Of a stretch of 64,000 nt of DNA, positions 17,636 to 41,817 are shown one piece after another. The first letter of the stretch is position 1. Each line of letters opens with the position of its first letter. Source of the DNA: Kribbella pratensis. Lineage in GTDB: Bacteria; Actinomycetota; Actinomycetes; Propionibacteriales; Kribbellaceae. The translations under genes and the position numbers were made by a program. The DNA is taken from NCBI RefSeq assembly GCF_004366075.1, contig NZ_SODU01000001.1, forward strand, positions 1,549,251-1,613,250. Reading direction: 5' to 3'. The notes beneath the pieces were generated by a model, which saw only the letters and a program-made list of their open reading frames with translations, did not search any database and had not been told where the DNA came from.

Positions 17636-18823
17636 TTAGCGGGAGACGAGGGCGGGGGTGTACCAGTCGGCCAGGAGGTCGGGGAGGCGGTCGGGGCCCC
17701 AGCGGTCTACTGGGGTGATTCGGCCGCGTAGGGAGGCGAGGCCCTTCGCGAGTTCGCCTACTACGTCGCCTTGCCAGGGGACGGTGACGCCTTCGTCGGG
17801 GCCGACGATGACGGCGGGGCCGCCGCGGTTCACGCAGACCACGGGGCAGCCGGAGGCGAGGGCCTCGGTGACGGCCCAGCCGGCGGCTTCGCGGAACGCG
17901 GGGGCAAGGAGGGCGTCGGCGCGGAACATGGCCGCCAGCACCTCCTCGCGAGGCAGGGCGCCCATGAACTCGACACGATCGCGAACACCGAGCTGCCAGG
18001 CCAGGCTCTCCGCGCGTCCCCAATCGGGACCGTCGCCGATGATCCGCAGCTCCCAGTTGGCCGCCTCTGGACGGGCGAGCGCGCTGATCGCGAGCAGCAC
18101 GCCCTTCCACGGGATCAGCCGCCCGACGAACAGCGCCGTCTTCACACCGGGAGCACCGAACGGCTCATAAGGACCGGACGCGGTGAAGCGCCGGATCGCC
18201 ACGTTGGGCTGGACCACGATCTCGCGAGCGTACGGCGCGAACGCCTCCGCCACATCGTTGTTCTGGGCAACCATGAGGTCGGCGGTCCGCGCCATTCGCC
18301 GCCCGGTCGCGCGGCGCCGGAGCCCGGTGTACGCACGGCGTACCAGCTCCCCCACCACACCGCGCGCGCCGAGCCAGTGCGCCATCGACAGCGGCGCGCT
18401 CGTCGACCCGCCGACCGGTCCCCAGATCACCTTGGCGGACGACGGTTCGACCACGCCGGCGCCCATCCAGTCCACCGCGAAGGTCAGGTGATGGATCACG
18501 TCGAACGACTGCTCCGCATGCAGGCGCCGCGCCGTACGCCGAGCCAGTCCCTGCCACAGCGGGTAGTACCAGTACACGTCCGAGGGCCGTCGCCGCAGCC
18601 GCAGAATCCAGCGAGGCAGCTCGAGCGGTACGACGGTCAGACCGGGCACCGGCCGCGCCGCGAGCTCTTCCTCGATCTCGTGCACGAACTTGCCCCGGGT
18701 CAGCAGCCAGACGTCGTGGTCCCGCGCCGCCGCCTTGGCCCACGCCCACCCGGCGCCCGGCTCGGAGCCGCCCGTCGGCCGGCAGGCGTACGCGCTGAGC
18801 AGTACCTTCGGCCGGCCGTACAT
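17636..18823 (-). CDS. glycosyltransferase family 4
   Basis: A 395-residue GT-B glycosyltransferase. The N-terminal acceptor half begins KVLLSAYACRPTGGSEPGAGW, a version of the glycine-rich loop. The donor half has LFVGRLIPWKGVLLAISAL and the EX7E-like EAAGWAVTEALASGCPVV that binds the nucleotide sugar. It transfers a sugar from an NDP-sugar onto a lipid-linked or surface acceptor on the cytoplasmic side. It ends a five-gene minus-strand run with two cytidylyltransferases and a CDP-alcohol phosphatidyltransferase, which suggests a phospho-polyol-containing glycan. Donor and acceptor are unknown. Confidence 0.88.
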   Translation of the reverse strand: MYGRPKVLLSAYACRPTGGSEPGAGWAWAKAAARDHDVWLLTRGKFVHEIEEELAARPVPGLTVVPLELPRWILRLRRRPSDVYWYYPLWQGLARRTARRLHAEQSFDVIHHLTFAVDWMGAGVVEPSSAKVIWGPVGGSTSAPLSMAHWLGARGVVGELVRRAYTGLRRRATGRRMARTADLMVAQNNDVAEAFAPYAREIVVQPNVAIRRFTASGPYEPFGAPGVKTALFVGRLIPWKGVLLAISALARPEAANWELRIIGDGPDWGRAESLAWQLGVRDRVEFMGALPREEVLAAMFRADALLAPAFREAAGWAVTEALASGCPVVCVNRGGPAVIVGPDEGVTVPWQGDVVGELAKGLASLRGRITPVDRWGPDRLPDLLADWYTPALVSR

Positions 18824-19239
18824 CAGCTCATCCCCTCCAGGAGCCTGCGCAGATCCGTGCTCGAGGTGGAGGCGGTGTACGGGAAATAGTGCACCTGTGC
18901 GCCGACCTCACCCAGCAGTCTTTCCAGTCTCTTCCCCTTTTCCGTTCCCTTCCAGTCATCGCCCTTGAAGAGAACGTCGTACCGCAGCTGCTGCCACATC
19001 TCGAACTTGTCGCTCGACCAGTCGCTGACCACCTCGTCGACAAGGTCGAGCGCCCGGATGACATCCATCCGTTCCTGGTGCGGAACCACCGGCGGCCGGC
19101 CCTTGATCCGGGTGACGACATCGTCCTCGACGACCCCCGCGATCAGGTGGTCGCAGTACTCGCGGGCGCGGCGCAGGATGTTCAGGTGCCCGATGTGGAA
19201 CATGTCGTACACCCCGGGTGCGTACCCGACGATCGCCAT
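18823..19239 (-). CDS. TagD-like cytidylyltransferase (first copy)
   Basis: A 138-residue nucleotidyltransferase of the glycerol-3-phosphate cytidylyltransferase type. GVYDMFHIGHLNILRRA carries the HxGH active site, RPPVVPHQERMDVIRAL the second conserved block, and YTASTSSTDLRR resembles the ISTTxI end motif. It probably activates a polyol- or alcohol-phosphate with CTP. It starts at ATG 19239 and overlaps the CDP-alcohol phosphatidyltransferase gene by one base (TGATG), so the two are translationally coupled. The CDP-alcohol it makes could be used by that neighbour. Confidence 0.87.
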   Translation of the reverse strand: MAIVGYAPGVYDMFHIGHLNILRRAREYCDHLIAGVVEDDVVTRIKGRPPVVPHQERMDVIRALDLVDEVVSDWSSDKFEMWQQLRYDVLFKGDDWKGTEKGKRLERLLGEVGAQVHYFPYTASTSSTDLRRLLEGMS

Positions 19240-19964
19240 CAGGCGCGCACCCCCAGCGCGGCCATCTCCCGGTACCACTTCCGGACCGCGGCCGCGAGGA
19301 ACAGGACGTTCAGCACCAGCAGAGCGCCGTACAGCACGACGAACAACGACGGCGTACCGAAGGCGAGGAAGACCAGGCACAGTACGCCGTAGTCGGTCGG
19401 TGCGATGAGCAACGACTTCACCACGGAATCGCCGCGCACGTTGGGTTTCGAGGAGGCGTCGTGCCGCCGGCGGAGCTGGTCGATCAGGATCAGCCCGAAG
19501 AACAGCACCGACGACACGCAGACGTACGCGAGCGGGACCAGCAGCACCAGATCGTTGTCAAAGGCATCGAAACGGTAGAACGAGATCAGTACGGCGCTGT
19601 GCAGCAGCACGATCTTGACCGCGTCGATCATGTGGTCGAGCCACTCCCCCAGCGGGGACCCGCCGCCGCGCAGCCGGGCCAGCTGCCCGTCCGCGGAGTC
19701 CAGCCCGTACCCGAGCACGAGCAACAACGTCACCGCCAGCGCCAGGCCGAGTGACGGGCGCACGCAGGCCAGCAGCAGGATCCCGACGAGCGAGCAGAAC
19801 CCGGACGCGAGGCTCACCTGGTTCGGCGTCCGCCTCCCGAGGAACGCGGCGGCCGCGAACACGCGCCCGATCCGCCGGTTCACGAATCGTGAGTACGCCG
19901 GCGTACCGGCCGACGGCTTCTGCGCCCGGGACAGCTGCGCGACGGTGTCTCGCAGCCCACTCAT
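19239..19964 (-). CDS. CDP-alcohol phosphatidyltransferase family protein
   Basis: A 241-residue membrane enzyme with five to six hydrophobic segments. The family motif is visible as DSADGQLARLRGGGSPLGEW followed by LDHMID, matching DGx2ARx8Gx3Dx3D with the metal-binding aspartates intact. Enzymes of this family transfer a phospho-alcohol from its CDP form to a second alcohol, giving phospholipids or phosphodiester-linked polyols. Here it lies between two soluble cytidylyltransferases, so its donor may be a product of one of them and not CDP-diacylglycerol. The start overlaps the preceding gene by ATGA. Confidence 0.88.
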   Translation of the reverse strand: MSGLRDTVAQLSRAQKPSAGTPAYSRFVNRRIGRVFAAAAFLGRRTPNQVSLASGFCSLVGILLLACVRPSLGLALAVTLLLVLGYGLDSADGQLARLRGGGSPLGEWLDHMIDAVKIVLLHSAVLISFYRFDAFDNDLVLLVPLAYVCVSSVLFFGLILIDQLRRRHDASSKPNVRGDSVVKSLLIAPTDYGVLCLVFLAFGTPSLFVVLYGALLVLNVLFLAAAVRKWYREMAALGVRA

Positions 19965-20398
19965 GCGACGTTCGAACTGCGGGACTGCCGCTGGTCGATC
20001 GCGGCACGCAGGATCGGGCTGCGCGAGCCGCGGCCGGCGGGCAGGACGGTGATCAGCCCGGCCGGAATCCCGTCGAGCTCGTCCACCCCCAGCACGCCGT
20101 CCGTGGCGCCGGCAGCGAACACGGTCTGTACTCCCAGTACGCCGGTCAGCCAGTCGGACCGTACGTCGTCCACGGCAACCACCTCGTCGACGCAGCGCAG
20201 GTGCTCGAGGATCTGTGCCCGCTCGAGCAGCGGCACGAACGGCCGCCCGCCCCACGCGTCCAGCGCCCAGTCGTCGGACAGCACCGCCACGACGAGCCGG
20301 TCGCAGTGCCGCCGCGCCCGCTCGAGCACGTCGACATGGCCTACGTGAAACAGGTCGAAGACTCCAGCGACGCAGCCGACCCGGGGCACACTGCCCAC
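19961..20398 (-). CDS. TagD-like cytidylyltransferase (second copy)
   Basis: A 145-residue nucleotidyltransferase with CVAGVFDLFHVGHVDVLERA (HxGH motif), GRPFVPLLERAQILEHLRCVD and a final RGSRSPILRAAI. It is clearly a distant relative of the copy at 18823-19239 but shares little beyond the motifs, so the two probably act on different alcohols. I chose GTG 20398 because GGGGGA stands seven bases upstream; an open frame to 20548 overlaps the upstream glycosyltransferase gene and lacks family support. It is coupled to the phosphatidyltransferase gene by an ATGA overlap. Confidence 0.82.
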   Translation of the reverse strand: MGSVPRVGCVAGVFDLFHVGHVDVLERARRHCDRLVVAVLSDDWALDAWGGRPFVPLLERAQILEHLRCVDEVVAVDDVRSDWLTGVLGVQTVFAAGATDGVLGVDELDGIPAGLITVLPAGRGSRSPILRAAIDQRQSRSSNVA

Positions 20399-20459
20399 AG
20401 TTACATCCCCCAACGCGAACTCCTGAATTCCGTCTGGAACGACGCTGCCCCCTGCGTCT

Positions 20460-21665
20460 TCATACCCGTGGTTCCGTGCGCGCCCGGCCGCTGGCGGAGT
20501 GCCGGGCGATCGCATCGGTGTAGATCCTTTCCATGGCCACCAGGTCACGCTCCGGTGTGAAGCGCTCCAAATAGACCTGACGGGCTCGTTCGCCGAAGGC
20601 TATCGAAGTCTCGGGATCAGCCACCAACCCGATCGCCTTCCGCAATCCTTCCGGATCGCGGGGCGCGGTCAGTACACCGGATTCGCCGTCGTCGACGAGC
20701 TCCGCGAGCGCCCCGAGCCGGGACGCGACCACGGGCACCCCGTGCGCGAAGGCCTCCACCACCACGAGCCCGAAACTCTCATACGAACGGGCCGGTACGA
20801 CGGCGGCGCGCGCAGACCGCAGCTGGTCCATGCCGTCCGCCCAGGGCAGTTGACCAAGCACCTGAATCGACAGGTCTTTCCGGGCGCGTTCCTCGGCCCC
20901 CGCCCGCAGCGGACCATCGCCCACCACCACCAATCGGCCGAGCGACGCGTCCCACGCCTGCAGGAGATCCGCGAACCCCTTGTCCTCGCTCAACCTTCCG
21001 AGAAACACCACCGCGTCCCCCGCGCCGCTGCGTACCGCACCCGAATGCGGTACGGCGTGCGGCTTCACCACGAACCGCTCCGGATCGAACCCGGCCGCGG
21101 CGTACCGGTCCCGCACGAGCTCGGACGGTACGACGAACGTCCCGACGTACCGCTGCCACGTGTGCAAGGCGTTGTGCACGCCGATGCTCGTCGCCAGCGG
21201 CAACGTCTGCACCCGCGAATCGCGGTAACAACCGTGCTTCACGGCCGCCAGCGGCACCTTCCCGATGCACGACTCACACGGCCCGCCGTCACGCTGCAGG
21301 ACACCGTTCGCACACAGCAGCCGGAAGTTGTGCAGCGTTGCCACGACCGGGAGGTCCAGCCGGTACGCCGCCCGCAGCACTGAAGGGCTGAACAACGGGA
21401 AAGTGTTGTGCACATGCACCACATCGGGCCGCTGCGCCTGCAATAGCTGTGTTAAATCGCGTTCCGCCGAAAATGACCAAACGGAGCGAAACGGTAACAG
21501 AGCGCGATCTTTTCGCCCCATCTCGGCGATGTCGTCGCTGTTTCGGGCGTAAAGGTCGACTTCATGTCCTGAGTTACGCAACAAATCAACCGTTTGCGCG
21601 ACAACCGTGTTCTCACCGCTGGGTTGACCGGTCCGGTAACGGTTGTGCAACATGGCGACCCGCAT
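20460..21665 (-). CDS. glycosyltransferase family 4
   Basis: A 401-residue GT-B enzyme, first gene of the minus-strand run. The N-terminal domain has RTGQPSGENTVVAQTVDLL and the acceptor-side VATLHNFRLLCANG. A GGPCESC segment with a Cys-x2-Cys follows, as in some WcaA/WbnK-like proteins. The donor domain has VVFLGRLSEDKGFADLLQAW and ESFGLVVVEAFAHGVPVVAS (EX7E). The two GT4 enzymes of this run are not close copies. It is divergent from the first beta-helix gene with only 60 bases between them. Donor and acceptor unknown. Confidence 0.9.
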   Translation of the reverse strand: MRVAMLHNRYRTGQPSGENTVVAQTVDLLRNSGHEVDLYARNSDDIAEMGRKDRALLPFRSVWSFSAERDLTQLLQAQRPDVVHVHNTFPLFSPSVLRAAYRLDLPVVATLHNFRLLCANGVLQRDGGPCESCIGKVPLAAVKHGCYRDSRVQTLPLATSIGVHNALHTWQRYVGTFVVPSELVRDRYAAAGFDPERFVVKPHAVPHSGAVRSGAGDAVVFLGRLSEDKGFADLLQAWDASLGRLVVVGDGPLRAGAEERARKDLSIQVLGQLPWADGMDQLRSARAAVVPARSYESFGLVVVEAFAHGVPVVASRLGALAELVDDGESGVLTAPRDPEGLRKAIGLVADPETSIAFGERARQVYLERFTPERDLVAMERIYTDAIARHSASGRARTEPRV

Positions 21666-21725: not shown

Positions 21726-23429
21726 TTGAGGAAGTTGTGGTTCGCAGCGCTCATCGCTGCGGCGGCGGCCGTCGTCACGGTCGCGGTGCCGGTCATCGCA
21801 GGAGAGAACAAGGCGACGACCGCGGCGAAGTCCGAGCAGGCCGCGTCTCGCGTGCTGCCCTCGCACAGCCCGGGTAAGACCACCACGGCGAAGCCCGGTA
21901 CGAGCCGGCCGAAGACCACAGCTACGACCGTGCCACCGAAGAAGCCAGGTACGACGCCGCATCCGACCCGCAAGCCGACCACGTCGGCGGCGCCGAGCAA
22001 GCCGGTCGAGCCCAAGCTCCCGAAGCCGCCCGGCGTGGACTCCGACGAGGCCGGCCCGGCCGTCGCCGGGCCGTGCGTCGGCACGGTGATCAAGCCCGGT
22101 CAGAACGCCCAGTCGATCGTGAACTCCAAGCCGGCCGGTACGACGTTCTGCTTCGCGGCAGGCCTGCACCGGATCACCGACACGATCCGCCCGAAGGCGA
22201 ACCAGGTGCTGGCGAGCGCGCAGCGCGCCGTACTCACCGGGTCGGTGCCGCTGAGCGGGTGGGCCAAGTCCGGGTCCGTCTGGGTTGTGCGGGGTGCGCT
22301 GCCGTCGGCGTACGGCAAGAGCGGTGAGTGCGAGGACAACAAGGCGAACATCTGCTACTTGCGGGAGCAGTTGTTCCTCGACGACACGCACCTGACGCGG
22401 GTCGCGAGTGTCGCGGCGGTCAAGGCCGGCAAGTTCTACGCCGACTACGCGGCGAACGCGATCTACCTCGGCAGCAACCCGACCGGTCACGACATCGAGA
22501 TGTCGAAGACGGCGACGGCGATCGAGTCGGGCGCGAGCGGCGTGGCCGTGCGCGGCCTCACCATCGAGCACTTCGCCAGCGCACCGCAGGCCGGGGCGCT
22601 CGTCTCCGGGCCCGGCTGGAAGGTGACGGCCAACGACGTCCGCTGGAACCACGCGGTCGGTGTGATGCTGGTGAAGGCGAACAGCACCAAGGTCGACAAG
22701 AACCTGATCCACCACAACGGCCAGCTCGGCCTCGGGCAGTACAGCTCGGCCGCGGCCGCCGTCACCCGGAACGTGATCAGCTCCAACAACACCGACGGCT
22801 TCTGGATCGCCGACTGGGAGTCCGGCGGCATCAAGTCCACCCGCTCCTCGGGCACCGTCAGCGGCAACGTGATCAAGTCCAACCTGGGCATCGGGATGTG
22901 GGCCGACGTCGCCGACGACGGCCGGGTGATCAGCGACAACCAGATCGTCGGCAATGCGGCGGACGGCATCCGGTACGAGATCAGCCGCAACGGCACGATC
23001 GAAGGCAACACGGTGACCGGCAACGGCTTCGGCACCGGCCGCGGATCCGGTACCTCGCTGTGGGACGGGGGCGGGATCAACGTGAACACCTCGGCCGGGG
23101 TCACCATCAAGGGCAACCGGGTGTCGGGCAACGTGAACGGCGTGACGATCCAGTCCCGGACCCGCGGCAGCGGCCCGTGGGGCACCTACCTGCTGCGCGA
23201 CGTCCGGGTCAGCGGGAACACGATCGAGATGACCGGCGGGACCCAGGCCACCGGCATGGTCCAGAACTCCGGCGCCACGGTGCCGGCCGGTGAAGTGGTC
23301 TTCAGTGGCAACAAGTACGTCCTCGACGACCTCGGCACCCAGCGGTTCGCCCGGTTCGGCACCAAGCTCACCGCCGCCGGCTGGCAGGACGCCGGCCTGG
23401 ACACAGTCGGCAGCTTTCTCGCGAATTGA
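21726..23429 (+). CDS. secreted right-handed parallel beta-helix protein (copy 1)
   Basis: A 567-residue exported protein. The TTG start at 21726 follows AGGAGAG with six bases between; it gives a signal peptide/anchor (LWFAALIAAAAAVVTVAVPV). A Pro/Thr/Lys-rich linker runs to about residue 110. The remaining 450 residues are short beta-strand coils with Asn ladders (NxxSxN, NxVTGNG). Conserved blocks shared with the copies at 23559 and 33309 are AVLTGSVPLSGW, FYADYAANAIYLG, NNTDGFWIADWESGGIK (from about residue 354) and NGFGTGRGSG with SLWDGGGINVNTS (from about 433). Known proteins of this fold are polysaccharide lyases, epimerases and hydrolases; the activity is not known here. Confidence 0.87.
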   Translation: MRKLWFAALIAAAAAVVTVAVPVIAGENKATTAAKSEQAASRVLPSHSPGKTTTAKPGTSRPKTTATTVPPKKPGTTPHPTRKPTTSAAPSKPVEPKLPKPPGVDSDEAGPAVAGPCVGTVIKPGQNAQSIVNSKPAGTTFCFAAGLHRITDTIRPKANQVLASAQRAVLTGSVPLSGWAKSGSVWVVRGALPSAYGKSGECEDNKANICYLREQLFLDDTHLTRVASVAAVKAGKFYADYAANAIYLGSNPTGHDIEMSKTATAIESGASGVAVRGLTIEHFASAPQAGALVSGPGWKVTANDVRWNHAVGVMLVKANSTKVDKNLIHHNGQLGLGQYSSAAAAVTRNVISSNNTDGFWIADWESGGIKSTRSSGTVSGNVIKSNLGIGMWADVADDGRVISDNQIVGNAADGIRYEISRNGTIEGNTVTGNGFGTGRGSGTSLWDGGGINVNTSAGVTIKGNRVSGNVNGVTIQSRTRGSGPWGTYLLRDVRVSGNTIEMTGGTQATGMVQNSGATVPAGEVVFSGNKYVLDDLGTQRFARFGTKLTAAGWQDAGLDTVGSFLAN

Positions 23430-23474
23430 CCGCTTGCCTTTCGCAACATGTTTGTGCGCTACGTATTGCCATGA

Positions 23475-23487
23475 CTACGTGACGTAG
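23475..23487. promoter_or_regulatory. palindrome upstream of beta-helix copy 2
   Basis: CTACGTGACGTAG is a 6+1+6 palindrome 72 bases before the ATG. A weak promoter can be drawn around it (TTGCCA at 23466-23471, TAATCT at 23491-23496, spacer 19). No matching box was found in front of the other two copies. Confidence 0.3.
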
Positions 23488-23558
23488 GGGTAATCTGCGT
23501 ACGAAGCCGCGCCATGGGGGGTGCGCTCAGGGCTACCTGTGCCACCGGAGGCTCCGCT

Positions 23559-25145
23559 ATGAGAACAGCAGTCGTTGCAGTTGTTGCAGTCGGCACCAGT
23601 CTGGTTGCCGTCAGCCCCCTGCCTGCGCAGGGCGCCCTCACTCCACCTGCAACCATTCCACCTACCGCCGCTCCGTCCGCCACCGTTCCGCCGGCCGATG
23701 GCACGTTCCGGACCGGTCCCGCGGTGGCGCCCGCCTGCAGCGGTGTGCCGATCCGTACCAGCGACAACGCCGCCCGGATCGTCGAGGACGCCCCGACCGG
23801 GACGACGTTCTGCTTCACACGCGGCTGGCACCGGATCACCGAGACGATCCACCCGAAGGCGGACCAGGTGCTCGCCGGCAACGACGGCGCCGTACTCACG
23901 GGATCGATCAGACTCACCAAATGGACGCCGAACAACGGCGACTGGGTGACCACCGGAGCTCTGCCACCGGCGTACCCGCAGACCGGGCAATGCGAGGACA
24001 ACACGGCGAACACCTGCTACCTGGGCGAGCAGCTGTTCCGGGACAGCAAGCACCTGACCCGGGTGGCAACCCGCGACAAGGTTGCCCCTGGCACCTTCTA
24101 CGCCGACTACGCGGCGAACGCGATCTACCTGGGCAGCGACCCGGCCGGGCACTCGATCGAGATGTCGAAGACGCAGACCGCGATCGAGTCCGGCGCGACC
24201 AATGTGACCGTCCGCGGGCTGACGATCGAGCACTTCGCCACCCCGCCGCAGGGCGGTGCGGTGGTGCTCGGCCTGGGCTGGAAGGTGATCGCCAACGACA
24301 TCCGCTGGAACCACGGGGTCGGCGCGATGCTGGTGAACGCGGACGGCGCCGTACTCGAGAGGAACCACATCCACTCGAACGGCCAGCTCGGCATCGGCCA
24401 GTACAGCACGCTGAAGGCAACCATTGCCGCCAACGAGGTCAGCTACAACAACACCGACGGCTTCTGGATCGCGGACTGGGAGTCCGGCGGGATCAAGACC
24501 ACCTGGTCCAGCGGCGGCTGGGTGAGCGGCAACCTGATCCAGTACAACCGCGGCGTCGGGCTGTGGAGCGACGCGTACGACGACAGCCGCACCTTCAGCA
24601 GCAACCAGATCCTCGACAACGCGGCGGACGGGATCCGCTACGAGATCGGCCGCAACGGCGTCATCGAGGACAACGTGGTGAGCGGCAACGGCTTCGGCAC
24701 CGGCCGCGGATCCGGTACGTCGCTGTGGGACGGCGGCGGGATCAACGTGAACACGTCGTCGAACGTCCAGGTCCGCGACAACGTGGTGGCGAACAACGTC
24801 AACGGGATCGCGATCCAGTCCCGCACCCGCGGCTCGGGCCCGTGGGGCACCAACCAGCTCCGCGACATCGTTGTCTCCGGCAACCAGGTGACGATGCGCG
24901 GCGGCACCACCGCGACCGGCATGGTGCAGAACGCCGGCGCGGTCATCCCGCCCGGCGAGGTCACCCTGAACGACAACACCTACATCCTCGACAGCCTCGC
25001 CGCCGAACGCTTCCAGAAGACCGGTGAGTGGTACACGGCGAAGGCGTGGCGCACCACCGGCCAGGACACCACCAGCGCCTTCACCCTGGGCAAAGCAATC
25101 CTCGACGCCACCGGCATCCTCACCATCCTCCCCACAACCAACTGA
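23559..25145 (+). CDS. secreted right-handed parallel beta-helix protein (copy 2)
   Basis: A 528-residue paralogue of the proteins at 21726 and 33309. ATG 23559 is preceded by GGAGG. The signal peptide (RTAVVAVVAVGTSLVAVSPL) ends near PAQG, followed by a short Pro/Thr linker and the conserved core: GTTFCFTRGWHRITETI, AVLTGSIRLTKW, FYADYAANAIYLG, IEHFA, NNTDGFWIADWESGGIKTT, NAADGIRYEI and SLWDGGGINVNTS. Two Cys-containing loops (CSGVP; CEDNTANTCYLGEQLF) recur in all copies and may form disulfides. It follows copy 1 by 129 bases, pointing to tandem duplication. Role probably extracellular, on a polysaccharide. Confidence 0.87.
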   Translation: MRTAVVAVVAVGTSLVAVSPLPAQGALTPPATIPPTAAPSATVPPADGTFRTGPAVAPACSGVPIRTSDNAARIVEDAPTGTTFCFTRGWHRITETIHPKADQVLAGNDGAVLTGSIRLTKWTPNNGDWVTTGALPPAYPQTGQCEDNTANTCYLGEQLFRDSKHLTRVATRDKVAPGTFYADYAANAIYLGSDPAGHSIEMSKTQTAIESGATNVTVRGLTIEHFATPPQGGAVVLGLGWKVIANDIRWNHGVGAMLVNADGAVLERNHIHSNGQLGIGQYSTLKATIAANEVSYNNTDGFWIADWESGGIKTTWSSGGWVSGNLIQYNRGVGLWSDAYDDSRTFSSNQILDNAADGIRYEIGRNGVIEDNVVSGNGFGTGRGSGTSLWDGGGINVNTSSNVQVRDNVVANNVNGIAIQSRTRGSGPWGTNQLRDIVVSGNQVTMRGGTTATGMVQNAGAVIPPGEVTLNDNTYILDSLAAERFQKTGEWYTAKAWRTTGQDTTSAFTLGKAILDATGILTILPTTN

Positions 25146-33308: not shown

Positions 33309-34838
33309 ATGAGGCGTGGGGTTGTCGCGGCTGCTGGTGCCGCGCTGTTGCTGTTGTCGGGCTGCACGGATTCAGAGGGCTCTCCCGAGCCCTCCAGGCC
33401 CGCGCCGACAGTCACGGTGACGGTTCCGACGGCTCCTCCGGCCGCGGCTGCCGCTGTGCTCGGGCCGACGGGCCCGAGTACAGCGAAGCCCTGTAGCGGA
33501 ACGGCTATCGAGGTCGGCGTCGACCCGCAGCCGATCATCGACGCCACCCCGGCAGGCACCACGTTCTGTTTTGCGAAGGGTGTCCACCGCCTCACGCGAG
33601 CGATCCAGCCCCGCGAGGGCGATACGCTCGCGGGCGCGCCGGGCGCCGTACTGAGCGGTGCCGTCCGACTGACCGGATGGAAGCGGGCCGGGAACGCCTG
33701 GACAGTGCAGGGCGTGCTGCCCGCCGCGTACCCGCTCAAGGGCCAGTGTGAGGACGACAAGACCAAGCCGTGCCAGCTCGGCGAGCAACTGTTCCTCGAC
33801 GGCAACCACCTGACCCGCGTGATGAGCCTGAGCCAGGTGAAGCCGGGCACGTTCTTCGCCGACTACCAGGCCAACGCCCTCTACCTGGGCGACGACCCGA
33901 CCGGACACGTCACAGAGATGTCGCGCACCCAGACCGCAATCGACAAGTCGGCCGACAACGTGACCGTGACCGGCCTGACGATCGAGCACTTCGCCAGCCG
34001 CCCGCAGGCGGGCGCGTTGCAGGCCGGCAAAGGCTGGAAGGTGACCGCCAACGAGGTCCGGTGGAACCACGCCGTCGGCATCATGGTGATCGAGGGCGAC
34101 AACGCCGAGGTCAGCCGGAACACGGTCGCGGACAACGGACAGCTCGGCATCGGCCAGTACAAGTCCGCCGGCGTCCGGATCAGCGCGAACCTGGTCACCC
34201 GCAACAACACCGACGGGTTCTGGATCGCGGACTGGGAGTCCGGCGGGATCAAGTCCACCAGGTCGTCCGGCGAGGTCAGCGGCAACGACATCGTCGCGAA
34301 CCGCGGCATCGGGATGTGGAGCGACATCGCGGAGTACGACCGCCGGATCACCGGGAACCGGATCCGCGACAACGCCGCGGACGGCATCCGGTACGAGATC
34401 AGCTACGCCGGCGTCATCGACCAGAACGTCGTACAGCACAACGGTTTCGGCACCGGCCGCGGCTCCGGCGGCTCGCTCTGGGACGGCGGCGGCATCAACG
34501 TCAACACGTCGTCCGACGTACAGGTCCGGGGCAACCTGATCCAGGACAACCGCAACGCGCTGTCGATCCAGTCCCGCACGCGCGGCGAGGGTCCGCGCGG
34601 TACCTACGTCCTGCGCAACGTCCTCGTCGAGGGCAACCTGGTCGTGATGACCGACGCCGCCTCGTCCCTCGGTGTGGTGGAGAACAAGCGCTCCCCCGCG
34701 CAACCTGGCGCCATCACGTTCCGCCGCAACAGCTACCGCGTCTCCGGGGGCGCCGATCGCTTCGCGTACCGCGGCAAGACGATGACCTGGTCCGAGTGGC
34801 AGCAGTCCGGCTTCGACCAGGACTCAGTGAGTAGCTGA
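33309..34838 (+). CDS. secreted parallel beta-helix lipoprotein (copy 3)
   Basis: A 509-residue paralogue of the proteins at 21726 and 23559. The N terminus is a lipoprotein signal peptide (VVAAAGAALLLLSGC, lipobox LSGC), unlike the other two copies, so this copy is tethered to the membrane. The linker is Pro/Thr/Val rich. The core keeps GTTFCFAKGVHRLTRAI, AVLSGAVRLTGW, the Cys loops CEDDKTKPCQLGEQLF, NNTDGFWIADWESGGIKST, NAADGIRYEI and SLWDGGGINVNTS. It starts 44 bases after uxaC and may be cotranscribed with it. Its end overlaps the convergent Wzy-like gene by 15 bases. Confidence 0.87.
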   Translation: MRRGVVAAAGAALLLLSGCTDSEGSPEPSRPAPTVTVTVPTAPPAAAAAVLGPTGPSTAKPCSGTAIEVGVDPQPIIDATPAGTTFCFAKGVHRLTRAIQPREGDTLAGAPGAVLSGAVRLTGWKRAGNAWTVQGVLPAAYPLKGQCEDDKTKPCQLGEQLFLDGNHLTRVMSLSQVKPGTFFADYQANALYLGDDPTGHVTEMSRTQTAIDKSADNVTVTGLTIEHFASRPQAGALQAGKGWKVTANEVRWNHAVGIMVIEGDNAEVSRNTVADNGQLGIGQYKSAGVRISANLVTRNNTDGFWIADWESGGIKSTRSSGEVSGNDIVANRGIGMWSDIAEYDRRITGNRIRDNAADGIRYEISYAGVIDQNVVQHNGFGTGRGSGGSLWDGGGINVNTSSDVQVRGNLIQDNRNALSIQSRTRGEGPRGTYVLRNVLVEGNLVVMTDAASSLGVVENKRSPAQPGAITFRRNSYRVSGGADRFAYRGKTMTWSEWQQSGFDQDSVSS

Positions 34839-36110
34839 CACGCGTCTTCGCTGCCGTAGCCGGTCGCCGTCGCAGATCGCGGCGGCCACCAACAGGTGCA
34901 CGGTCATCGAGGACAGGTCTGACAGGCCGCTCTCGTTGAGCGAGGCGGCCGTGACGTACCCGAGCAGCAAGGCGCCACAGGCCCGGACGTACGGCGTCGG
35001 CGCGCGCAGGACCGACACCCACGCCGCGATCAGCGCCACCGCGACGATCGCCACGGCCAGCAGCCCGGTCTCCCAGTAGAGCCCGAGCCAGCTGTTGTCG
35101 ATCGCCATCACGTCGACATCGCCTTCACCACGGGTGAGCAGCACGCGCTTGTTGCCGAGTCCGTGGCCGATGATCGCGGTCTGGATCGACACCTTCTCGT
35201 CCAGGACCGCCTGCCAACTCGTCGTACGGCCGCTCAGCGACGTGATCTGCTGCGTGCCCTGGCCGCGCAGCAGCCAGGTGTGCAACGAGCCGATGGTCAG
35301 GAACGCGACGCCGAGCAGCCCCGGTACGGCGAGGCACGCGATCCGGCCGAGCCACGTCTTCCGGGTGATGATCAGTGCGATCACGAGCCCACCTGCGACC
35401 GCGGCGGCCGACGTACGGGTCCGGCTGGCCGCGATCAGGACGCCGCCGAGGCCGATCAGCACCACCGCGGGCAGCGTGGCCAGCTTCCGGCAGACCAGGC
35501 CGATCAGCGCCAGCCCGAGCAGGATCGCGCCGACCTCGCCGACGCGCGGCGGCAGCATCGGGATGATGACGCCCTGCAGCCGGTACCCGGCGCCGAGGGA
35601 CCGCAGCGGCCGCCACGCCTGCGACGGCGCATAGGCCAGACTCAGTACGACGGTTGCCGCCAGCAACAGGTGGGCCAACAGATGCGCGCGGACCAGCCGC
35701 TCCGGCACCTGCACCAGCGGCCCCCATAACAGGAACAGCAGCACCAGGCCGATCAGGAAGCGCGCCAACCGCGTCAGCGGCCCCATCGGCTCGGCCAGCA
35801 GGAACGCCGTCGCACACGCGAACAGCACATACATCACGTACAGCCAGCTGGCCGGATTCACCCGGGTCCGGAACCCGGGCTTTGTCGCGGCCAGTGCGAC
35901 CATGAAGACCGCTCCGAGCAGCAGCCCTTTCGCGATGCTGTTCGTGGACCCGGTCGTGCCCTGCGGGGCGGCCACCCGCGACGACCAAGGCTGCACGCCG
36001 AGCACGAACAGGCACCACAGCATCAGCCAGAACCAGGCCGGCCGCTCGCTCTCGCCGGCGACCGTGCCCGGCACCGCGGGGGCCAATCGCGTCCCGGAAG
36101 CCATGGACAT
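34824..36110 (-). CDS. O-antigen ligase/polymerase-family membrane protein (Wzy-like)
   Basis: A 428-residue protein with about 11-12 hydrophobic segments and one large external loop (about residues 285-335: LSGRTTSWQAVLDEKV and GHGLGNKRVLLTRGEG), the layout of Wzy_C proteins. RTTSWxxxL and GxGLG are the usual motifs of this family. It would polymerise repeat units on the outer face of the membrane or ligate glycan. It overlaps the upstream Wzz-like gene by one base (TGATG), which makes a Wzz-Wzy pair. The first ATG is used; a second lies two codons on. Confidence 0.85.
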   Translation of the reverse strand: MSMASGTRLAPAVPGTVAGESERPAWFWLMLWCLFVLGVQPWSSRVAAPQGTTGSTNSIAKGLLLGAVFMVALAATKPGFRTRVNPASWLYVMYVLFACATAFLLAEPMGPLTRLARFLIGLVLLFLLWGPLVQVPERLVRAHLLAHLLLAATVVLSLAYAPSQAWRPLRSLGAGYRLQGVIIPMLPPRVGEVGAILLGLALIGLVCRKLATLPAVVLIGLGGVLIAASRTRTSAAAVAGGLVIALIITRKTWLGRIACLAVPGLLGVAFLTIGSLHTWLLRGQGTQQITSLSGRTTSWQAVLDEKVSIQTAIIGHGLGNKRVLLTRGEGDVDVMAIDNSWLGLYWETGLLAVAIVAVALIAAWVSVLRAPTPYVRACGALLLGYVTAASLNESGLSDLSSMTVHLLVAAAICDGDRLRQRRRVSATH

Positions 36111-37735
36111 CAGCGCATCGTCGGCGTACCCGCGTCCAGCGGCTTGTAGTTCAGCGGGATCCCGAGCGTCTCGTCCTGCGTCGACGTGCCGATCAGTACG
36201 ACGCCCAGCACCGGAGCGCCGGCGAACTGCAGGGCGCCCGTCAGCCGCGCGACGTCCATCTCCTTGTCGAGACCGACCTGCACCACGAGCACCGACGCAT
36301 CGACCGCCGCGGCGAGCGGCGTGATGCCGTGCCGCCCGACGGAGGCCGGGCCGTGGACCACCACGGAGTACCCGGGCGGCAGGTCGGCGACGATCCCCGG
36401 GACCAGCGACGGGCCTACCGCCTCGGCCGTCTCCTCGTGGTTCAGCCCGGGCGGCAGCACGTACAGGTCCGCGACGGTCCCCGGCCGGAACAGCTTCCGG
36501 GCTCGGATCGCACGGGTCGCGGCCGGCTCGTTGACCAGGTCGGTGAGGCCCTCGTGCCCGGTGAGATGCGGGAGCACCGGCGTACCTTCGATGTCAGCCA
36601 GCACCAGCAGCGTCTCGCGGCCGTCGCGGGCGTTCGCCTCGGCCATCGCCAGCGCGATCCCCGCCGAGTTCGGAGTCGGGGACGCCGACACGACCAGCAG
36701 CGCGCCCGGAGAGCCGGCCGCGAACGCGCGCGGGTTCAGCTCGCGCCGCGCCAGCGCACCGCTCGCCTCGGCGCCGAGCGCGGTGATCTCGTACTGCGGG
36801 AGCTCCGGAGCGGATCGCTGCCACACCCGTCGCCGATACCCCTCGGATGCGGCGATCACCGGCGCGGACGATGCCCGTGCCGCTTGGTCGCGAGTCAGGA
36901 TGTACGGCGTCAGATGCGACCGCAGGAGCGCGAGGCCGAAGCCGAGGACCAGTCCGAGGATCCCGCCGACGAGGATGTCGCGGGCAACCATCGGCGACGA
37001 GCTGGCGGTGTCGGTCGTCGCCGGCGTGACCAGCTGGCTCCCGGAGCCGACCGTCGACAGCGCCTTCAGCATCGCGGCGGCGTCGTCCGCGGCCTGCCGG
37101 GCCTCGGTCGCCAGGCCGACGCGCTGGTCGCGCAGTGCTGCCGCGGTCTGGTTGTCGCCGCGACCGACGGCTTCGTCGATCTGGCTGACCAGGCTGCGGG
37201 ACTGCGTGGTCGCCGTCTTCGACCGGGCCTGGGCCTGCTCGGCCAGGTTGGTCAGCAGCGCCTTGGCCTCGGAATTGCGCTGCGCCAGGTAGATCGCGGA
37301 GATCGCGTTCGCCCGGTCGACCGCCTTCTGCGCGGTCGGGCCGTCGGTGGTGACCAGGTAGGCGTTGTCGGTGACGGCCTTCACCCGCGTCACCGCGGCC
37401 AGGTCCTGGATGGTCTGGTCGTTGTCCGGCATGCCGAGCGCCTTGACGACGGCCTTGAGCAGCGTCGGGCTGGCCATCACCCGCGCCTGGGTCTCGGCCG
37501 GGAGGTCCATTCCCAGCGGGCCGCTCTTGTCCGCGGACGTGGACAGCTTGCCGACGAGCGCCGGCGGCACCGCCGGACCGATCACCAGCTGGCTCGAGGC
37601 GGTCCAGCGCTCGGTCTGGGAGAGCGCGAACACGGAGGCGCCGAGCAGTCCGAGCAGGATGCAGCCCAGGATCAGCCATTTCTGCCGCAGCAGTGACTGA
37701 GCGGTTTCCCGCCAGACCACGGTGCCCGGTTCCAT
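36110..37735 (-). CDS. Wzz-type chain-length regulator fused to a CpsD-like domain without P-loop
   Basis: A 541-residue protein. A Wzz domain lies at the N terminus: transmembrane helix KWLILGCILLGLLGASVFAL, an extracellular coiled region to about residue 245, and a second helix DILVGGILGLVLGFGLALL. The cytoplasmic part resembles BY-kinase domains (LVVSASPTPNSAGIALAMAE, LLVLADIEGTPVL, VVVHGPASV). The Walker A site, normally PGEGKST, is PNSAGIA, so the catalytic Lys is gone and no Tyr-rich tail follows. It is probably a regulator without kinase activity. ATG 37735 follows GGAGG. Confidence 0.85.
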   Translation of the reverse strand: MEPGTVVWRETAQSLLRQKWLILGCILLGLLGASVFALSQTERWTASSQLVIGPAVPPALVGKLSTSADKSGPLGMDLPAETQARVMASPTLLKAVVKALGMPDNDQTIQDLAAVTRVKAVTDNAYLVTTDGPTAQKAVDRANAISAIYLAQRNSEAKALLTNLAEQAQARSKTATTQSRSLVSQIDEAVGRGDNQTAAALRDQRVGLATEARQAADDAAAMLKALSTVGSGSQLVTPATTDTASSSPMVARDILVGGILGLVLGFGLALLRSHLTPYILTRDQAARASSAPVIAASEGYRRRVWQRSAPELPQYEITALGAEASGALARRELNPRAFAAGSPGALLVVSASPTPNSAGIALAMAEANARDGRETLLVLADIEGTPVLPHLTGHEGLTDLVNEPAATRAIRARKLFRPGTVADLYVLPPGLNHEETAEAVGPSLVPGIVADLPPGYSVVVHGPASVGRHGITPLAAAVDASVLVVQVGLDKEMDVARLTGALQFAGAPVLGVVLIGTSTQDETLGIPLNYKPLDAGTPTMR

Positions 37736-37911: not shown

Positions 37912-40143
37912 ATGACGAAACGACGGCTGTTCACACGGCTGGGGGTCGTAGGGACGGCACTCGCCGTCGCAGCAACCGTGCTGAGCGCGGCACCGGCGCA
38001 GAGCGTCGAGGCTTCGCTCGCGGCAACCAACAGCTCGACCTGGCAGACCAACGCCAGCGTCCAGGGTCTCGCGGTCGCCGCGGGCACGGCGTACGCCGGA
38101 GGACGCTTCACCAGCGTCCGCCCGCCGGGCGCCGCGCCCGGAACCGGTGAGATCGCCCAGGCGTACCTGGCGGCCTTCGACGCGGCCACCGGCGCACTGG
38201 TCAGCACGTTCAACCCGGTGCTGAACGGCCAGGTCTACGCGGTCGCCGCCTCCGCGGACGGCTCCCGGATCTTCGTCGGCGGTGACTTCACCACGGTCAA
38301 CGGCCAGACGCGGAACCGGATCGCCGCCTTCGACACCGCCACCGGCGCCTTGGTGGCGAACTGGAAACCGTCCGTTTCGTACCGCGTCAAGTCCATCGCG
38401 GTCTCCGGTACGACGGTGTACTTCGGCGGCTCGTTCGGCCTGGTGAACGGCGTGGACCGCCTGCGGCTGGCGGCCGTCACCACCGACACCGGCACGTTGT
38501 TGCCCTGGGCGCCCGCGGTCAACGGCGACGTGTACGCGGTGGACGCCGCCGATGACGCGTCCAAGGTGTACGCCGGTGGTCAGTTCAGCACCGTCAACGG
38601 CACCATGCAGAACACCGTGACGAGCCTCGATCCGGTCACCGGCGCCGTCCTGCCCTTCCCCGGTGCATCCGCCGTACCGCCGCCGAACGGGTCGTGCACG
38701 ACCCGGGTGAAGACGATCGACGCCAGCGGCGACACCGTGTACTTCGGCAACGGCGGTGACGGCGGCGGGTGTTTCGACGGCACCTGGGCGGCCGACATCG
38801 CGACCAACACGCTGAAGTGGAAGAACCAGTGCCTGGGCGCGACCGAGGCGGTCAAGGTCGTCAACGGCTGGCTGTACAAGGGCTCGCACGCGCACGACTG
38901 CGCCAACCAGGGCGCCGGCGGCTTCCCGCAGGGCTTCGGGTACCACTTCCTGCTCAGCGAGAAGCTGACCGACGGCACGCTCGGGCCCTGGTTCCCGAAC
39001 ACCGACGCCGACCCGAACAGTGTCACCAACGTCGGCCCGCTGGCGTTCGCGACCGGCGGCAACGACCTGTGGGTCGGCGGCGACTTCCTGAACGTGAACG
39101 GCACCGGCCAGCAGGGCCTGACCCGCTTCACCAACGCCGCCCCAGGCGCGGCCCCGGCCAAACCGGCCAAGCTGCTCCCCTACAGCGTCCAGCCCGGTGT
39201 CGTGCAGATCCACTTCCCGACCGTGGTCGACAACGACGACAGCACGCTGACCTACCGGCTGCTCAAGGGCTTCAGCAACACCACGATCGCGACCTGGACG
39301 GCCAGGTCCACGCCGTGGGACCGGCCGTGGCTGAGCTACACCGACACCTCTTCGGCGCCGGGTGAGGTCACCAACTACCGCGTCGAGGTCACCGACGGCA
39401 GTACGACGGTCCGCGGCAACTACTCCGACCAGATCACGGTCGCCTCGGCCGCGTCGACGGCGTACGACCAGATCGTCAACGCGGACGGGCCGCAGGCGTA
39501 CTGGCGACTCGGCGAGCCGGCCGGTACGACGACCTCGGTCGACGCCTCGGGGCAGAGCAACAACGGCACGTTCACCGGCGTGACGCTGGGCGGCGCCGGC
39601 GCGATCGCGGGCAACACCGCGATGACGACCAGTTCGACCAGCGGACGGATGGTCGGCGAGAAGGCGTACAGCATGCCGCAGCAGTTCACGGTCGAGGCCT
39701 GGGTCAAGCAGAGCGGGTTCAACCGCGGCGGCCGGATCATCGGCTTCGGCAACTCGAAGACCGGGAACAGCGGCGGTGGCGGCGACCGGATGCTGTACAT
39801 GCGGACCAACGGCTCGATCGTCTTCGGCGTGAACGACGGCTCGCAGCGGACATTGACCAGCCCGTCCGGCAAGAACGACGGCCTGTGGCACCACGTGGTC
39901 GGCAGCTACGACGGCACCGGCAGCACTGGAATGATGAAGCTGTACGTCGACGGCGTACTCAGCGGGAGCGCCTTGGTCGGCTCGGCGTCGGTGTACTACG
40001 GCTGGTGGCGGGTCGGGTACGACCTCACCAACTCGTGGCCCGGTGGTGGAGCGACCCAGACCGGAATGGGTATCGACGAGGCGGCCGTCTACCCGTACGC
40101 ACTCACCCCCGTACAGGTCCAATCCCACTATGCAGCAAGGTGA
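37912..40143 (+). CDS. secreted DUF5122-type beta-propeller with C-terminal LamG-like domain
   Basis: A 743-residue exported protein. A signal peptide (RLGVVGTALAVAATVLSAAP) is followed by about six repeats of VYxGGxFxxVNGxxRxxLAAFDxxTG type to about residue 410, a beta-propeller of the DUF5122 family. A fibronectin-like linker (TLTYRLLKG, NYRVEVTDG) follows, then a concanavalin A/LamG-like domain from about 515 to the end (AYWRLGEPAG, FTVEAWVKQ, WHHVVGSYDG, KLYVDGVL). The conserved Cys pairs (CTTRVK; GGGCFDGTW; NQCLGATEA) suggest disulfides. It is probably glycan-binding. ATG 37912 is used; an ATG eight codons upstream is possible. Confidence 0.85.
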   Translation: MTKRRLFTRLGVVGTALAVAATVLSAAPAQSVEASLAATNSSTWQTNASVQGLAVAAGTAYAGGRFTSVRPPGAAPGTGEIAQAYLAAFDAATGALVSTFNPVLNGQVYAVAASADGSRIFVGGDFTTVNGQTRNRIAAFDTATGALVANWKPSVSYRVKSIAVSGTTVYFGGSFGLVNGVDRLRLAAVTTDTGTLLPWAPAVNGDVYAVDAADDASKVYAGGQFSTVNGTMQNTVTSLDPVTGAVLPFPGASAVPPPNGSCTTRVKTIDASGDTVYFGNGGDGGGCFDGTWAADIATNTLKWKNQCLGATEAVKVVNGWLYKGSHAHDCANQGAGGFPQGFGYHFLLSEKLTDGTLGPWFPNTDADPNSVTNVGPLAFATGGNDLWVGGDFLNVNGTGQQGLTRFTNAAPGAAPAKPAKLLPYSVQPGVVQIHFPTVVDNDDSTLTYRLLKGFSNTTIATWTARSTPWDRPWLSYTDTSSAPGEVTNYRVEVTDGSTTVRGNYSDQITVASAASTAYDQIVNADGPQAYWRLGEPAGTTTSVDASGQSNNGTFTGVTLGGAGAIAGNTAMTTSSTSGRMVGEKAYSMPQQFTVEAWVKQSGFNRGGRIIGFGNSKTGNSGGGGDRMLYMRTNGSIVFGVNDGSQRTLTSPSGKNDGLWHHVVGSYDGTGSTGMMKLYVDGVLSGSALVGSASVYYGWWRVGYDLTNSWPGGGATQTGMGIDEAAVYPYALTPVQVQSHYAAR

Positions 40144-40186
40144 AAAGGCGTCTTTCTGCAAGATCTGACACAAACTCATAACGCGG

Positions 40187-40217
40187 GTGGGAGGTCCGCT
40201 TCCGGTGGGCCTCCCAC
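40187..40217 (+). terminator. hairpin between propeller genes 1 and 2
   Basis: GTGGGAGG (40187-40194) pairs with CCTCCCAC (40210-40217) around a 15-base loop, 44 bases past the stop of the first propeller gene. It should end or attenuate that transcript. A smaller GTGCGT/ACGCAC hairpin follows nearer the next gene. Confidence 0.6.
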
Positions 40218-40287
40218 AGCGGTAATGTCCGCCGCTGGTGCGTGATGAGGCACGCACTGTTACGCCCCCGCCTGTCGAAGGACATAA

Positions 40288-41817
40288 ATGAAGAAGTTAG
40301 TGCTCGCCCTGCTCACGGGTGCGGCTGTGCTCGCCGCCGCGTTGATTCCCTCCGGACCTCCGGTGCAGGCAGCGACGCCGGGCTTCGCGTCCGCGGTGTC
40401 CGCGATCAAGCAGACCTCGTGGCAGACCAACAACAGCGTGAACGCGCTGGCGATCGCCGGGAACACCGTGTTCGCGGGCGGTCTCTTCACCAGGCTTCGG
40501 CAGCCAGGCAAGGCGTCCGGACAGGCGCCGGAGGCCCTCCGCTCGTACGTCGCGGCGTTCGACCGCACCACCGGGAGGCCGACCGCGTTCGCGCCGGTGC
40601 TGAACGGACCGGTGTATGCCATCGCCACCAGCCCCGACGGCAAGTGGGTGGTGATCGGCGGTGACTTCACCACGGTCAACGGCATCCGGCGCAGCAAGAT
40701 CGCGATGTTCTCGGTGGCCACCGGCAAGCTGGTCGCGGCCTGGGACCCGGTCGTGGCGGCCCGGGTCAAGGCGCTGGCGATCTACGGCAACAGTGTGTTC
40801 ATCGGCGGCGCGTTCCGCGCGATCGACGGCGCGACCCGCAACCGGCTGGGCGCGGTCCGGCTGATCCAGGGCGACCTCCTGCCGTGGAACCCGAACGCGA
40901 ACAACGACGTGTACGCCGTCGACGTCGCCGACAACGGCACCCGGGTGTTCGTCGGCGGACCGTTCAGCACGATCAACGGCAAGGACCACTACTCGCTGGC
41001 GATGCTGAACAACACCACCGGCGCGGCGTTCGCCTTCCCGGCGGCGGCCGCGATCCCGAAGCCGACGGCGACCTGCACCACGCGGGTGAAGGATATCGAC
41101 ACCCTGGGCGACAACGTGTACGTCTCCAACGGCGGCGACGGTGGCGGCTGCTACGACGGCGTACTGGCCGCGCAGGTGTCGACCGGCAAGCTGCTCTGGC
41201 AGAACAAGTGCCTGGGCGCGACCGAGGCGATCAAGGCAATCGGCAGCTGGCTCTACAAGGGCTCGCACGCGCACAACTGCAGCTCGTCGCCGAACGGCTT
41301 CCCGGACGGAACCGGCACGCACTACCTGCTGGTCGAGAGCACGATCAACGGCAACCTCGGGCCGTGGTTCCCGAACACCGACGCGAACCCGAAGAGCACC
41401 ACCCAGGTCGGTCCGCTGGCGATGGCCGGCACCGCCACTGACCTGTGGGTCGGCGGCGACTTCCTGCACGTGAACGGCACGATCCAGGTGGGAATCACCC
41501 GGTTCACGAACACGCCCGGCGGTGCGGCTCCCGCCGTACCGAAGGCTCCGACGCTGACCGCGACGTCGTCGGGGCGCGTGTACGTGAGCTACACGGACTC
41601 GTACGACCTGGACAACCTGACGCTCACGTACAACGTGTTCCGCGGCTCGCTGAACGTCGGCTCGAACAAGTACACGACGTACTTCTGGCAGCCCCGTAAG
41701 ACCTACCAGGTCGTCGACCGCGGCCTCGCCCGCGGCTCGTCGTACACGTACCACGTGGAGGTCCACGACGGCCGCAACATCATGAAGGGCGCCAACGCCA
41801 CCGTAAAGATCCCCTGA
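40288..41817 (+). CDS. secreted DUF5122-type beta-propeller protein (paralogue 2)
   Basis: A 509-residue paralogue of the protein at 37912. A signal peptide (KKLVLALLTGAAVLAAALIP) precedes the repeats: TVFAGGLFTRL, VVIGGDFTTVNGIRRSKIAM, VFIGGAFRAIDGATRNRLGA, VFVGGPFSTING and LWVGGDFLHVNG. The Cys blocks CTTRVKDIDTLGDNVYVSNG, GGGCYDG and NKCLGATEAIKAIGSWLYKG are retained, then a C-terminal fibronectin-like strand set. It lacks the LamG-like domain of paralogue 1. The ATG follows GAAGGACATAA. Function not established; extracellular adhesion or glycan binding is a reasonable guess. Confidence 0.85.
   Translation: MKKLVLALLTGAAVLAAALIPSGPPVQAATPGFASAVSAIKQTSWQTNNSVNALAIAGNTVFAGGLFTRLRQPGKASGQAPEALRSYVAAFDRTTGRPTAFAPVLNGPVYAIATSPDGKWVVIGGDFTTVNGIRRSKIAMFSVATGKLVAAWDPVVAARVKALAIYGNSVFIGGAFRAIDGATRNRLGAVRLIQGDLLPWNPNANNDVYAVDVADNGTRVFVGGPFSTINGKDHYSLAMLNNTTGAAFAFPAAAAIPKPTATCTTRVKDIDTLGDNVYVSNGGDGGGCYDGVLAAQVSTGKLLWQNKCLGATEAIKAIGSWLYKGSHAHNCSSSPNGFPDGTGTHYLLVESTINGNLGPWFPNTDANPKSTTQVGPLAMAGTATDLWVGGDFLHVNGTIQVGITRFTNTPGGAAPAVPKAPTLTATSSGRVYVSYTDSYDLDNLTLTYNVFRGSLNVGSNKYTTYFWQPRKTYQVVDRGLARGSSYTYHVEVHDGRNIMKGANATVKIP

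Follow-up and report, generated by a model that had tools for sequence, protein, structure and literature searches.

The locus considered here raises the question of what a bacterium makes with two cytidylyltransferase-like proteins, one membrane phosphotransferase and two glycosyltransferases that are encoded side by side. The five genes lie in a 64,000-nucleotide stretch of the Kribbella pratensis genome (contig NZ_SODU01000001.1, positions 1,549,251 to 1,613,250; hereafter the window) and encode, from first to last, the GT4-type glycosyltransferase GT4A, the cytidylyltransferase-fold protein CT1, the class I cytidine diphosphate (CDP)-alcohol phosphotransferase PT, the cytidylyltransferase CT2 and a second GT4-type glycosyltransferase, GT4B. 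On balance, the set probably serves to decorate or link a polysaccharide of the cell surface through a single CDP-alcohol, which the CT1/CT2 pair would make and PT would transfer. The open reading frames, the families and the tight coupling had been described from the nucleotide letters alone (the sequence-only reading), and all were confirmed, the families with Pfam: both glycosyltransferases match Glycos_transf_1/Glyco_trans_1_4, both cytidylyltransferases match PF01467, and PT matches PF01066. CT1 and PT share an ATGA junction with a 4-base overlap, PT/CT2 and CT2/GT4B overlap by 1 base each at TGATG, and the sole open junction is a gap of about 46 bases between GT4A and CT1. The start of CT1 is TTG 20413, with GTG 20398 and GTG 20389 as alternatives. 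The low mutual similarity of CT1 and CT2 was likewise borne out (29% identity in alignment).

An intact and a degenerate cytidylyltransferase

Judged by its motifs, CT2 is the only intact cytidylyltransferase of the two. Among 80 collected CT2 members, the HxGH motif and the Ser/Thr motif were found in all 80 and GDDW in 78, with GSDW in the other 2; HxGH, the catalytic lysine and the Ser/Thr signature are invariant columns of the CT2 alignment (A1), as expected of an active member of the superfamily. CT2 shares the fold, GDDW and HxGH with TagD/TarD, while it reads PYTxxTSST where the Bacillus subtilis glycerol-3-phosphate cytidylyltransferase has PRTEGISTT.

The CT1 set comprises 28 proteins; their sources are the genus, genomes of Nocardioides type within the same order, Actinomadura, a metagenome-assembled genome (MAG) assigned to Frankia and another MAG. 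By the same patterns as were used for CT2, the lysine site, GDDW and the Ser/Thr motif were each found in 0/28 of these proteins, and HxGH was kept in 20 and missing in 8; active cytidylyltransferases combine HxGH, the lysine and the Ser/Thr motif. The CT1 of locus L075 retains an STT-like remnant, MSTT, which the pattern does not count. In several Nocardioides-type CT1 proteins, NVRD or NIRD stands at the place of HxGH within an otherwise similar stretch, and HxGH was therefore replaced and not merely worn away. The sequence-only reading had called both proteins TagD-like; both do belong to PF01467, and for CT1 the likeness holds for the fold and not for the catalytic motifs. The PF01467 match on CT1 spans its N-terminal half only. 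The AlphaFold2 model of CT1 (pLDDT 88.9) superimposes on the Staphylococcus aureus glycerol-3-phosphate cytidylyltransferase (Z-score = 16.6, 2.1 Å, 111 residues) and on human ethanolamine-phosphate cytidylyltransferase (ECT; Z-score = 16.1).

CT1 is under purifying selection, with a median dN/dS of 0.29, beside 0.28 for PT and 0.11 for CT2 (13 genomes, 78 pairs). A tree built from 73 rows places all CT1 proteins on one side of a single branch (28 rows versus 45; support 100/99), although its columns are few (144) and the branches among the CT1 proteins are long. According to the available text of PMC2784872, a VDEV-like stretch forms the dimer interface in the cytidylyltransferase superfamily. 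A loose pattern found such a stretch in 27/28 CT1 and 60/80 CT2 proteins, and its retention in CT1 is thus no more than suggestive. The C-terminal tail of CT1, RSSVA (or xxxVA), is conserved precisely where CT1 overlaps the start of PT, although its codons vary (19961-19980 in the window); this tail is common to Actinomadura, the Frankia-assigned MAG and the genus.

CT1, CT2 and PT across genomes

The genome that contains the window (8.39 Mb) and 37 further genomes were searched for the genus, and together with 79 others they form a sample of 117 relatives of the same order (PT threshold, E = 1e-20). PT was found in 55 of the 117, namely in 35/38 genus genomes and 20/79 others. CT2 (211 to 248 bits) was present in 55/55 PT-bearing genomes, and among the 62 without PT, 5 contain CT2 at 165 to 203 bits; the Fisher test on this co-occurrence ignores kinship. 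CT1 was found in 35/35 PT-bearing genus genomes, a count that represents one or a few evolutionary events, and in 7 of the 20 PT-bearing genomes outside the genus (G038, G110, G116, G074, G108, G104 and, as a fusion, G067); it was not seen in the other 13. These counts show that PT is always accompanied by CT2 and by CT1 in some lineages only. PT, CT1 and CT2 thus occur together in 35/38 genus genomes, and the remaining 3 contain no PT, no CT1 and no CT2 above 70 bits, so the five-gene set is not a chance arrangement.

The order CT1-PT-CT2 is found in the genus, in Actinomadura (L079, L087, L097, L099 and L114) and in L075, L103, L031 to L033 and L035. In L146 and L147, CT1 and CT2 are adjacent with a 4-base overlap, and PT is located elsewhere, about 108 kb from the L146 pair in G108 and on a different contig from the L147 pair in G104, where another CT2 lies close to PT. 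In L041, a single 262-residue protein consists of a degenerate CT1 domain, with TVGQ in place of HxGH, followed by an intact CT2 domain. On the basis of the motif loss, the selection, the fold and the pairing or fusion with CT2, the most likely interpretation is a cytidylyltransferase in two parts, of which CT1 would be the non-catalytic one and CT2 the other.

A counterpart is the eukaryotic ECT (PCYT2 in mammals), which also has two cytidylyltransferase domains with two HxGH motifs, as the genus pair does, and one Ser/Thr signature. The consulted part of PMC2784872 describes trypanosome ECT with two HxGH motifs, one RTXxISTT and the complete site in the N-terminal domain; the domain make-up of mammalian PCYT2 is treated in PMC3588000, and synthesis of CDP-glycerol by PCYT2 in PMC9223686, as far as their available text goes. 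The bacterial pair differs in that its halves are two genes, in the window as elsewhere, with a single chain only in L041, where the degenerate domain comes first. Human ECT also reads GND where CT2 has the GDDW of glycerol-3-phosphate enzymes.

CT1 might instead be a partner or membrane-docking subunit of PT that is tied to CT2 by gene order only. In most loci with CT1 and PT, its conserved RSSVA tail ends on the start codon of PT, as such a partnership would have it; on the other hand, the CT1-CT2 fusion of L041 and the PT-less pairs of L146 and L147 join CT1 to CT2, and we regard this alternative as unlikely.

The phosphotransferase

The signature of PT, DSADGQLAR...GEWLDHMID, fits the class I CDP-alcohol phosphotransferase motif D1xxD2G1xxAR...G2xxxD3xxxD4. 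Asp89, Asp92, Gly93, Arg97, Gly106, Asp110 and Asp114 are invariant in a 50-row alignment (A5), and Ala96 is present in at least 90% of the rows. The closest solved relatives by profile are Af2299 (E = 3.7e-13), DIPP synthase (1.7e-7) and cholinephosphotransferases (3e-7). The model of PT (pLDDT 94.5) shows the fold of the solved members, closest to Af2299 (Z-score = 18.2, 2.9 Å, 212 residues), followed by DIPP synthase (17.2), PIP synthase (15.4), CPT1 (13.2; the choline phosphotransferases score 13.2 and less) and PgsA (about 10). PT falls far below the NCBIfam equivalog cut-offs for PIPSynth (23.3 of 170 bits), pgsA (13.7 of 109.1) and pssA (21 of 107), and also far below the curated cardiolipin synthase cut-off. 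An ordinary phosphatidylglycerol or phosphatidylinositol synthase, the role that would have spoken against the sequence-only reading, is thus improbable: these curated scores are far too low, and the best match of the PT model is Af2299.

The likeness to Af2299 and to the IPCT-DIPP synthase of Archaeoglobus lies in a class I phosphotransferase that is coupled to a cytidylyltransferase and uses a polar CDP-alcohol donor. According to the part of PMC4634129 that is available, Af2299 binds and takes CDP-glycerol, neither Af2299 nor DIPP synthase processes lipids, and lipid-acceptor members carry three or four extra transmembrane helices. The Archaeoglobus chains differ in that the cytidylyltransferase domain is fused to the phosphotransferase; they are absent among the CT2-profile matches. 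In the model, the 241 residues of PT form about six long helices, the last of which ends at residue 240, and the three or four extra C-terminal helices of CPT1/CEPT1 are absent from PT.

Glycan context

Profile searches of genome contigs gave at least 394 PT relatives, nearly all listed matches being named as actinomycetes; 80 loci were kept, 71 of them from outside the genus. Neighbouring families were sought with profiles built for this analysis, named from Pfam scans of single members, and the counts are raw, without a background from random loci. At least one of the sought surface-polysaccharide families is present in 64/71 kept non-genus loci, a DUF1972 glycosyltransferase in 44/71, a polyprenyl-phosphate sugar transferase in 36/71 and a beta-propeller protein, of a kind that also occurs in the exopolysaccharide island of the window, in 44/71. 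For 62 called PT genes, 120 neighbouring positions were tallied: 29 are taken by a DUF1972 enzyme, 19 by CT2, 19 by a small conserved protein, 14 by a GT4 enzyme and 12 by a protein with a ParA-like ATPase domain, which we take for a putative BY-kinase type regulator; 13 were unassigned. These genes were called by a simple script tuned to high GC, which gave no calls in L085, L088 and L091 and shortened some starts, including those of PT and GT4A in the window. The VIA-align match lists leave room for other families. L085, a MAG named 'Bifidobacterium breve', and L145, a contig named 'Planococcus', carry an actinomycete PT, and L071, named 'Streptomyces', holds the Kribbella five-gene set; these three records are probably misnamed or contaminated.

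LicD enzymes take a CDP-alcohol and decorate glycans, and the LicD and PT families are unrelated. In the PT-less genomes G042, G049 and G064, a LicD-family gene follows CT2 (Pfam, above the gathering score), and in G057, also PT-less, CT2 is followed by a relative of the same size, recognized by eye from its sequence with no scan. A LicD-like gene is therefore coupled to CT2 in 4/5 genomes with CT2 and without PT (not in G089), and it stands where PT is missing. Since LicD acts on glycans, this exchange of LicD for PT argues for a glycan acceptor of PT. LicD is absent from the genome of the window (0/1). In four loci, CT2 relatives are coupled to LicD-like proteins of 519 to 542 residues (L151, 2841-4831; L152, 7631-9612; L153, 7908-9997; L165, 3215-5181); that of L151 has a methyltransferase domain over the cut-off and that of L152 a weak one, and a small protein follows the LicD-like gene, with DUF6752 in L151, the one scanned.

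In a Kennedy-type scheme, the product of PT would be a phospholipid or glycolipid and its acceptor diacylglycerol or glycosyl-diacylglycerol. The best PDB sequence match of both CT1 and CT2 is human ECT, and PT matches cholinephosphotransferase 1, as this scheme would predict; nevertheless, the short six-helix PT lacks the additional helices of lipid-acceptor enzymes and is nearer to Af2299 than to CPT1/CEPT1, and both the exopolysaccharide neighbourhood and the exchange with LicD point away from a lipid, so that we consider such a product improbable. The sequence-only reading had placed the product of the set in a glycolipid or a phosphodiester-linked polymer; that a CDP-alcohol is made and used by PT is probable, and the exopolysaccharide clusters supply a glycan context.

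Identity of the alcohol

Glycerol is a tentative choice for the alcohol of CT2 and PT, by analogy, and we would put it at somewhat under even chances. It is the first guess because CDP-glycerol is the donor of Af2299, because CT2 has the GDDW of glycerol-3-phosphate enzymes and because a further TagD-like gene was not found in the genome, in which the PF01467 members are CT1, CT2 and proteins that resemble CoaD, NadD and RibF by eye; a second IspD-like match scores 39 bits. Several observations weigh against glycerol. The distance of CT2 to the enzymes for glycerol-3-phosphate, ethanolamine-phosphate and hydroxyethylphosphonate is much the same in each case, and the TIGR01518 glycerol-3-phosphate cytidylyltransferase equivalog model (cut-off 165.4 bits) gives only 57.6 bits for CT2 and 42.8 bits for CT1. 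The function of TagF would need CDP-glycerol. A TagF-like gene is present in 38/38 genus genomes, including the 3 without CT2, so CT2 is not required for a supply of CDP-glycerol; the argument for CDP-glycerol by exclusion was dropped for this reason.

A phosphonate substrate, suggested by a match to the cytidylyltransferase domain of Fom1, is unlikely because the phosphoenolpyruvate (PEP) mutase motif is missing: EDKxxxxxNS, the true PEP mutase motif according to the available part of PMC6697681, occurs in none of the six PEP_mutase-family stretches of the genome in any frame. A phosphoglycerate cytidylyltransferase of a different family is described in the accessible text of PMC12275187. A conserved family of about 297 residues adjoins a Gfo/Idh/MocA oxidoreductase near the cytidylyltransferase genes (L031, 7883-8776; L032, 7570-8463; L033, 7313-8215; L043, 9815-10672); it is aldo-keto-reductase-like by eye, with no Pfam match in the one member scanned. 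Both genes are upstream of CT1 in L031 to L033, where their products might make another polyol.

Proposed function and remaining alternatives

In the scheme that we favor, CT2 would form the CDP-alcohol, with release of pyrophosphate, from cytidine triphosphate and the phosphate of a small alcohol, for which glycerol is the likeliest candidate. CT1 would bind CT2 as a non-catalytic half; together they would be a split cytidylyltransferase with pseudo-symmetry, comparable to the two-domain ECT of eukaryotes, in which CT1 may regulate CT2 or anchor it to PT. PT, as a member of the Af2299/DIPP-synthase group, would then work on the cytosolic side of the membrane and transfer the phospho-alcohol to a sugar of a lipid-linked repeating unit, with release of cytidine monophosphate, while the two GT4 enzymes would build the repeating unit and the exopolysaccharide machinery would export it. 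Gene order, motif states, co-occurrence, fusion, selection and fold are read from sequence, and from these we infer the heterodimer, which alcohol is used, the glycan acceptor and the export route.

Further points weigh against this scheme. Some 13 kb separate the five-gene set of the genus from the exopolysaccharide island, so that the set is not within it; CT2 is inside the fetched flanks (up to 9 kb) in only 36/71 non-genus loci; CT1 could equally partner PT where PT sits between CT1 and CT2; the LicD matches cover only about 30 model positions; and the CT1 of the genus retains FDLFHVGH and may therefore still bind nucleotide or have some activity.

The sequence-only reading had proposed that the two enzymes make different CDP-alcohols, or that one CDP-alcohol serves as donor and the other as acceptor precursor; this would require CT1 to be active with an active site rebuilt for a new substrate. 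Although the genus CT1 keeps the conserved FDLFHVGH under selection and differs widely from CT2, the loss of the lysine site, GDDW and the Ser/Thr motif throughout the CT1 set, the NVRD or NIRD replacements, the absence of CT1 from most PT-bearing genomes outside the genus and its fusion and pairing with CT2 speak against both versions, and two active cytidylyltransferases seem still less probable than a lipid product. PT might also make a soluble phosphodiester that serves as a compatible solute, in the manner of DIPP synthesis in archaea. Such a product would agree with the closeness of PT to DIPP synthase and Af2299 in fold and sequence and is very improbable, since the identified neighbours of PT are glycosyltransferases and export genes and LicD-like genes occupy the place of PT in relatives.

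The likely reading is a module that tailors polysaccharide with one alcohol, that uses a split cytidylyltransferase of which half is dead, and that is widespread, in pieces, across Actinomycetota. More specifically, and with less confidence than for the overall function, PT may carry out a widespread, hitherto undescribed actinomycete tailoring of surface polysaccharide, and in several lineages the CDP-alcohol for it may come from an active cytidylyltransferase and a dead one in obligate partnership, a bacterial counterpart of ECT that arose by duplication and is mostly unfused. No description of such a module, and no report of a surface-polysaccharide role for a membrane CDP-alcohol phosphotransferase, was found in the literature searched; nor was any pathway with exactly this set, as the sequence-only reading had remarked, most subscription papers being outside reach. 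If the scheme is correct, a large family of actinomycetote CDP-alcohol phosphotransferases that has been an orphan would have a function, glycans would join the acceptors known for the superfamily, and one would expect a phosphodiester-bearing exopolysaccharide in Kribbella and many other PT-holding actinomycetes. The split pair, adjacent pair, fusion and CT2 alone would then form a natural experiment on how a dead half came to persist next to its live twin.

Surroundings of the set

The features of the window are listed in Table 1. The exopolysaccharide island is a possible source of the acceptor glycan. Relatives of the two divergent beta-helix proteins flank the set in the genus loci L051 to L064, and the pair are possibly secreted glycan-associated proteins. 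Relatives of GT4A stand near PT in many actinomycete loci, while GT4B is mostly confined to the genus, its cluster consisting of genus loci and one 47% match in L040.

Table 1. Positions of the five-gene set and of other features in the window
Feature	Position	Strand	Basis
GT4A, GT4-type glycosyltransferase, first gene	20460-21665	-	PF13692 (E = 5e-27), PF13439
CT1, cytidylyltransferase fold without catalytic lysine, GDDW and SST motifs	19961-20413	-	PF01467 (E = 2e-13)
PT, class I CDP-alcohol phosphotransferase	19239-19964	-	PF01066 (E = 7.5e-8), signature intact
CT2, intact cytidylyltransferase (HIGH, K46, KGDDW, TSST)	18823-19239	-	PF01467 (E = 1.3e-17)
GT4B, GT4-type glycosyltransferase, last gene	17636-18823	-	PF00534 (E = 8.7e-27)
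Two divergent right-handed beta-helix proteins beside the set	21726-25145	+	PF13229 (E = 2.7e-25) on the first
Exopolysaccharide island (proteins listed below and others)	34824-60519	-	Pfam and gene calls
Wzy-like protein, in island	34824-36110	-	Wzy_C match just below cut-off
Wzz, in island	36110-37735	-	Pfam
Three beta-propeller-type proteins inside island	37978-43369	+	DUF5122 on the one scanned
WecG/TagA glycosyltransferase, in island	44634-45380	-	Pfam
Polyprenyl-phosphate sugar transferase, in island	47313-48782	-	Pfam
Pyruvyl transferase, in island	51493-52716	-	Pfam

In Kribbella steppae (L060, 10128-11369, plus strand, on the same contig as L066), a 413-residue open reading frame that by eye resembles an IS110-type transposase lies between CT1 and PT and splits the junction that is overlapping in the other genus loci examined.

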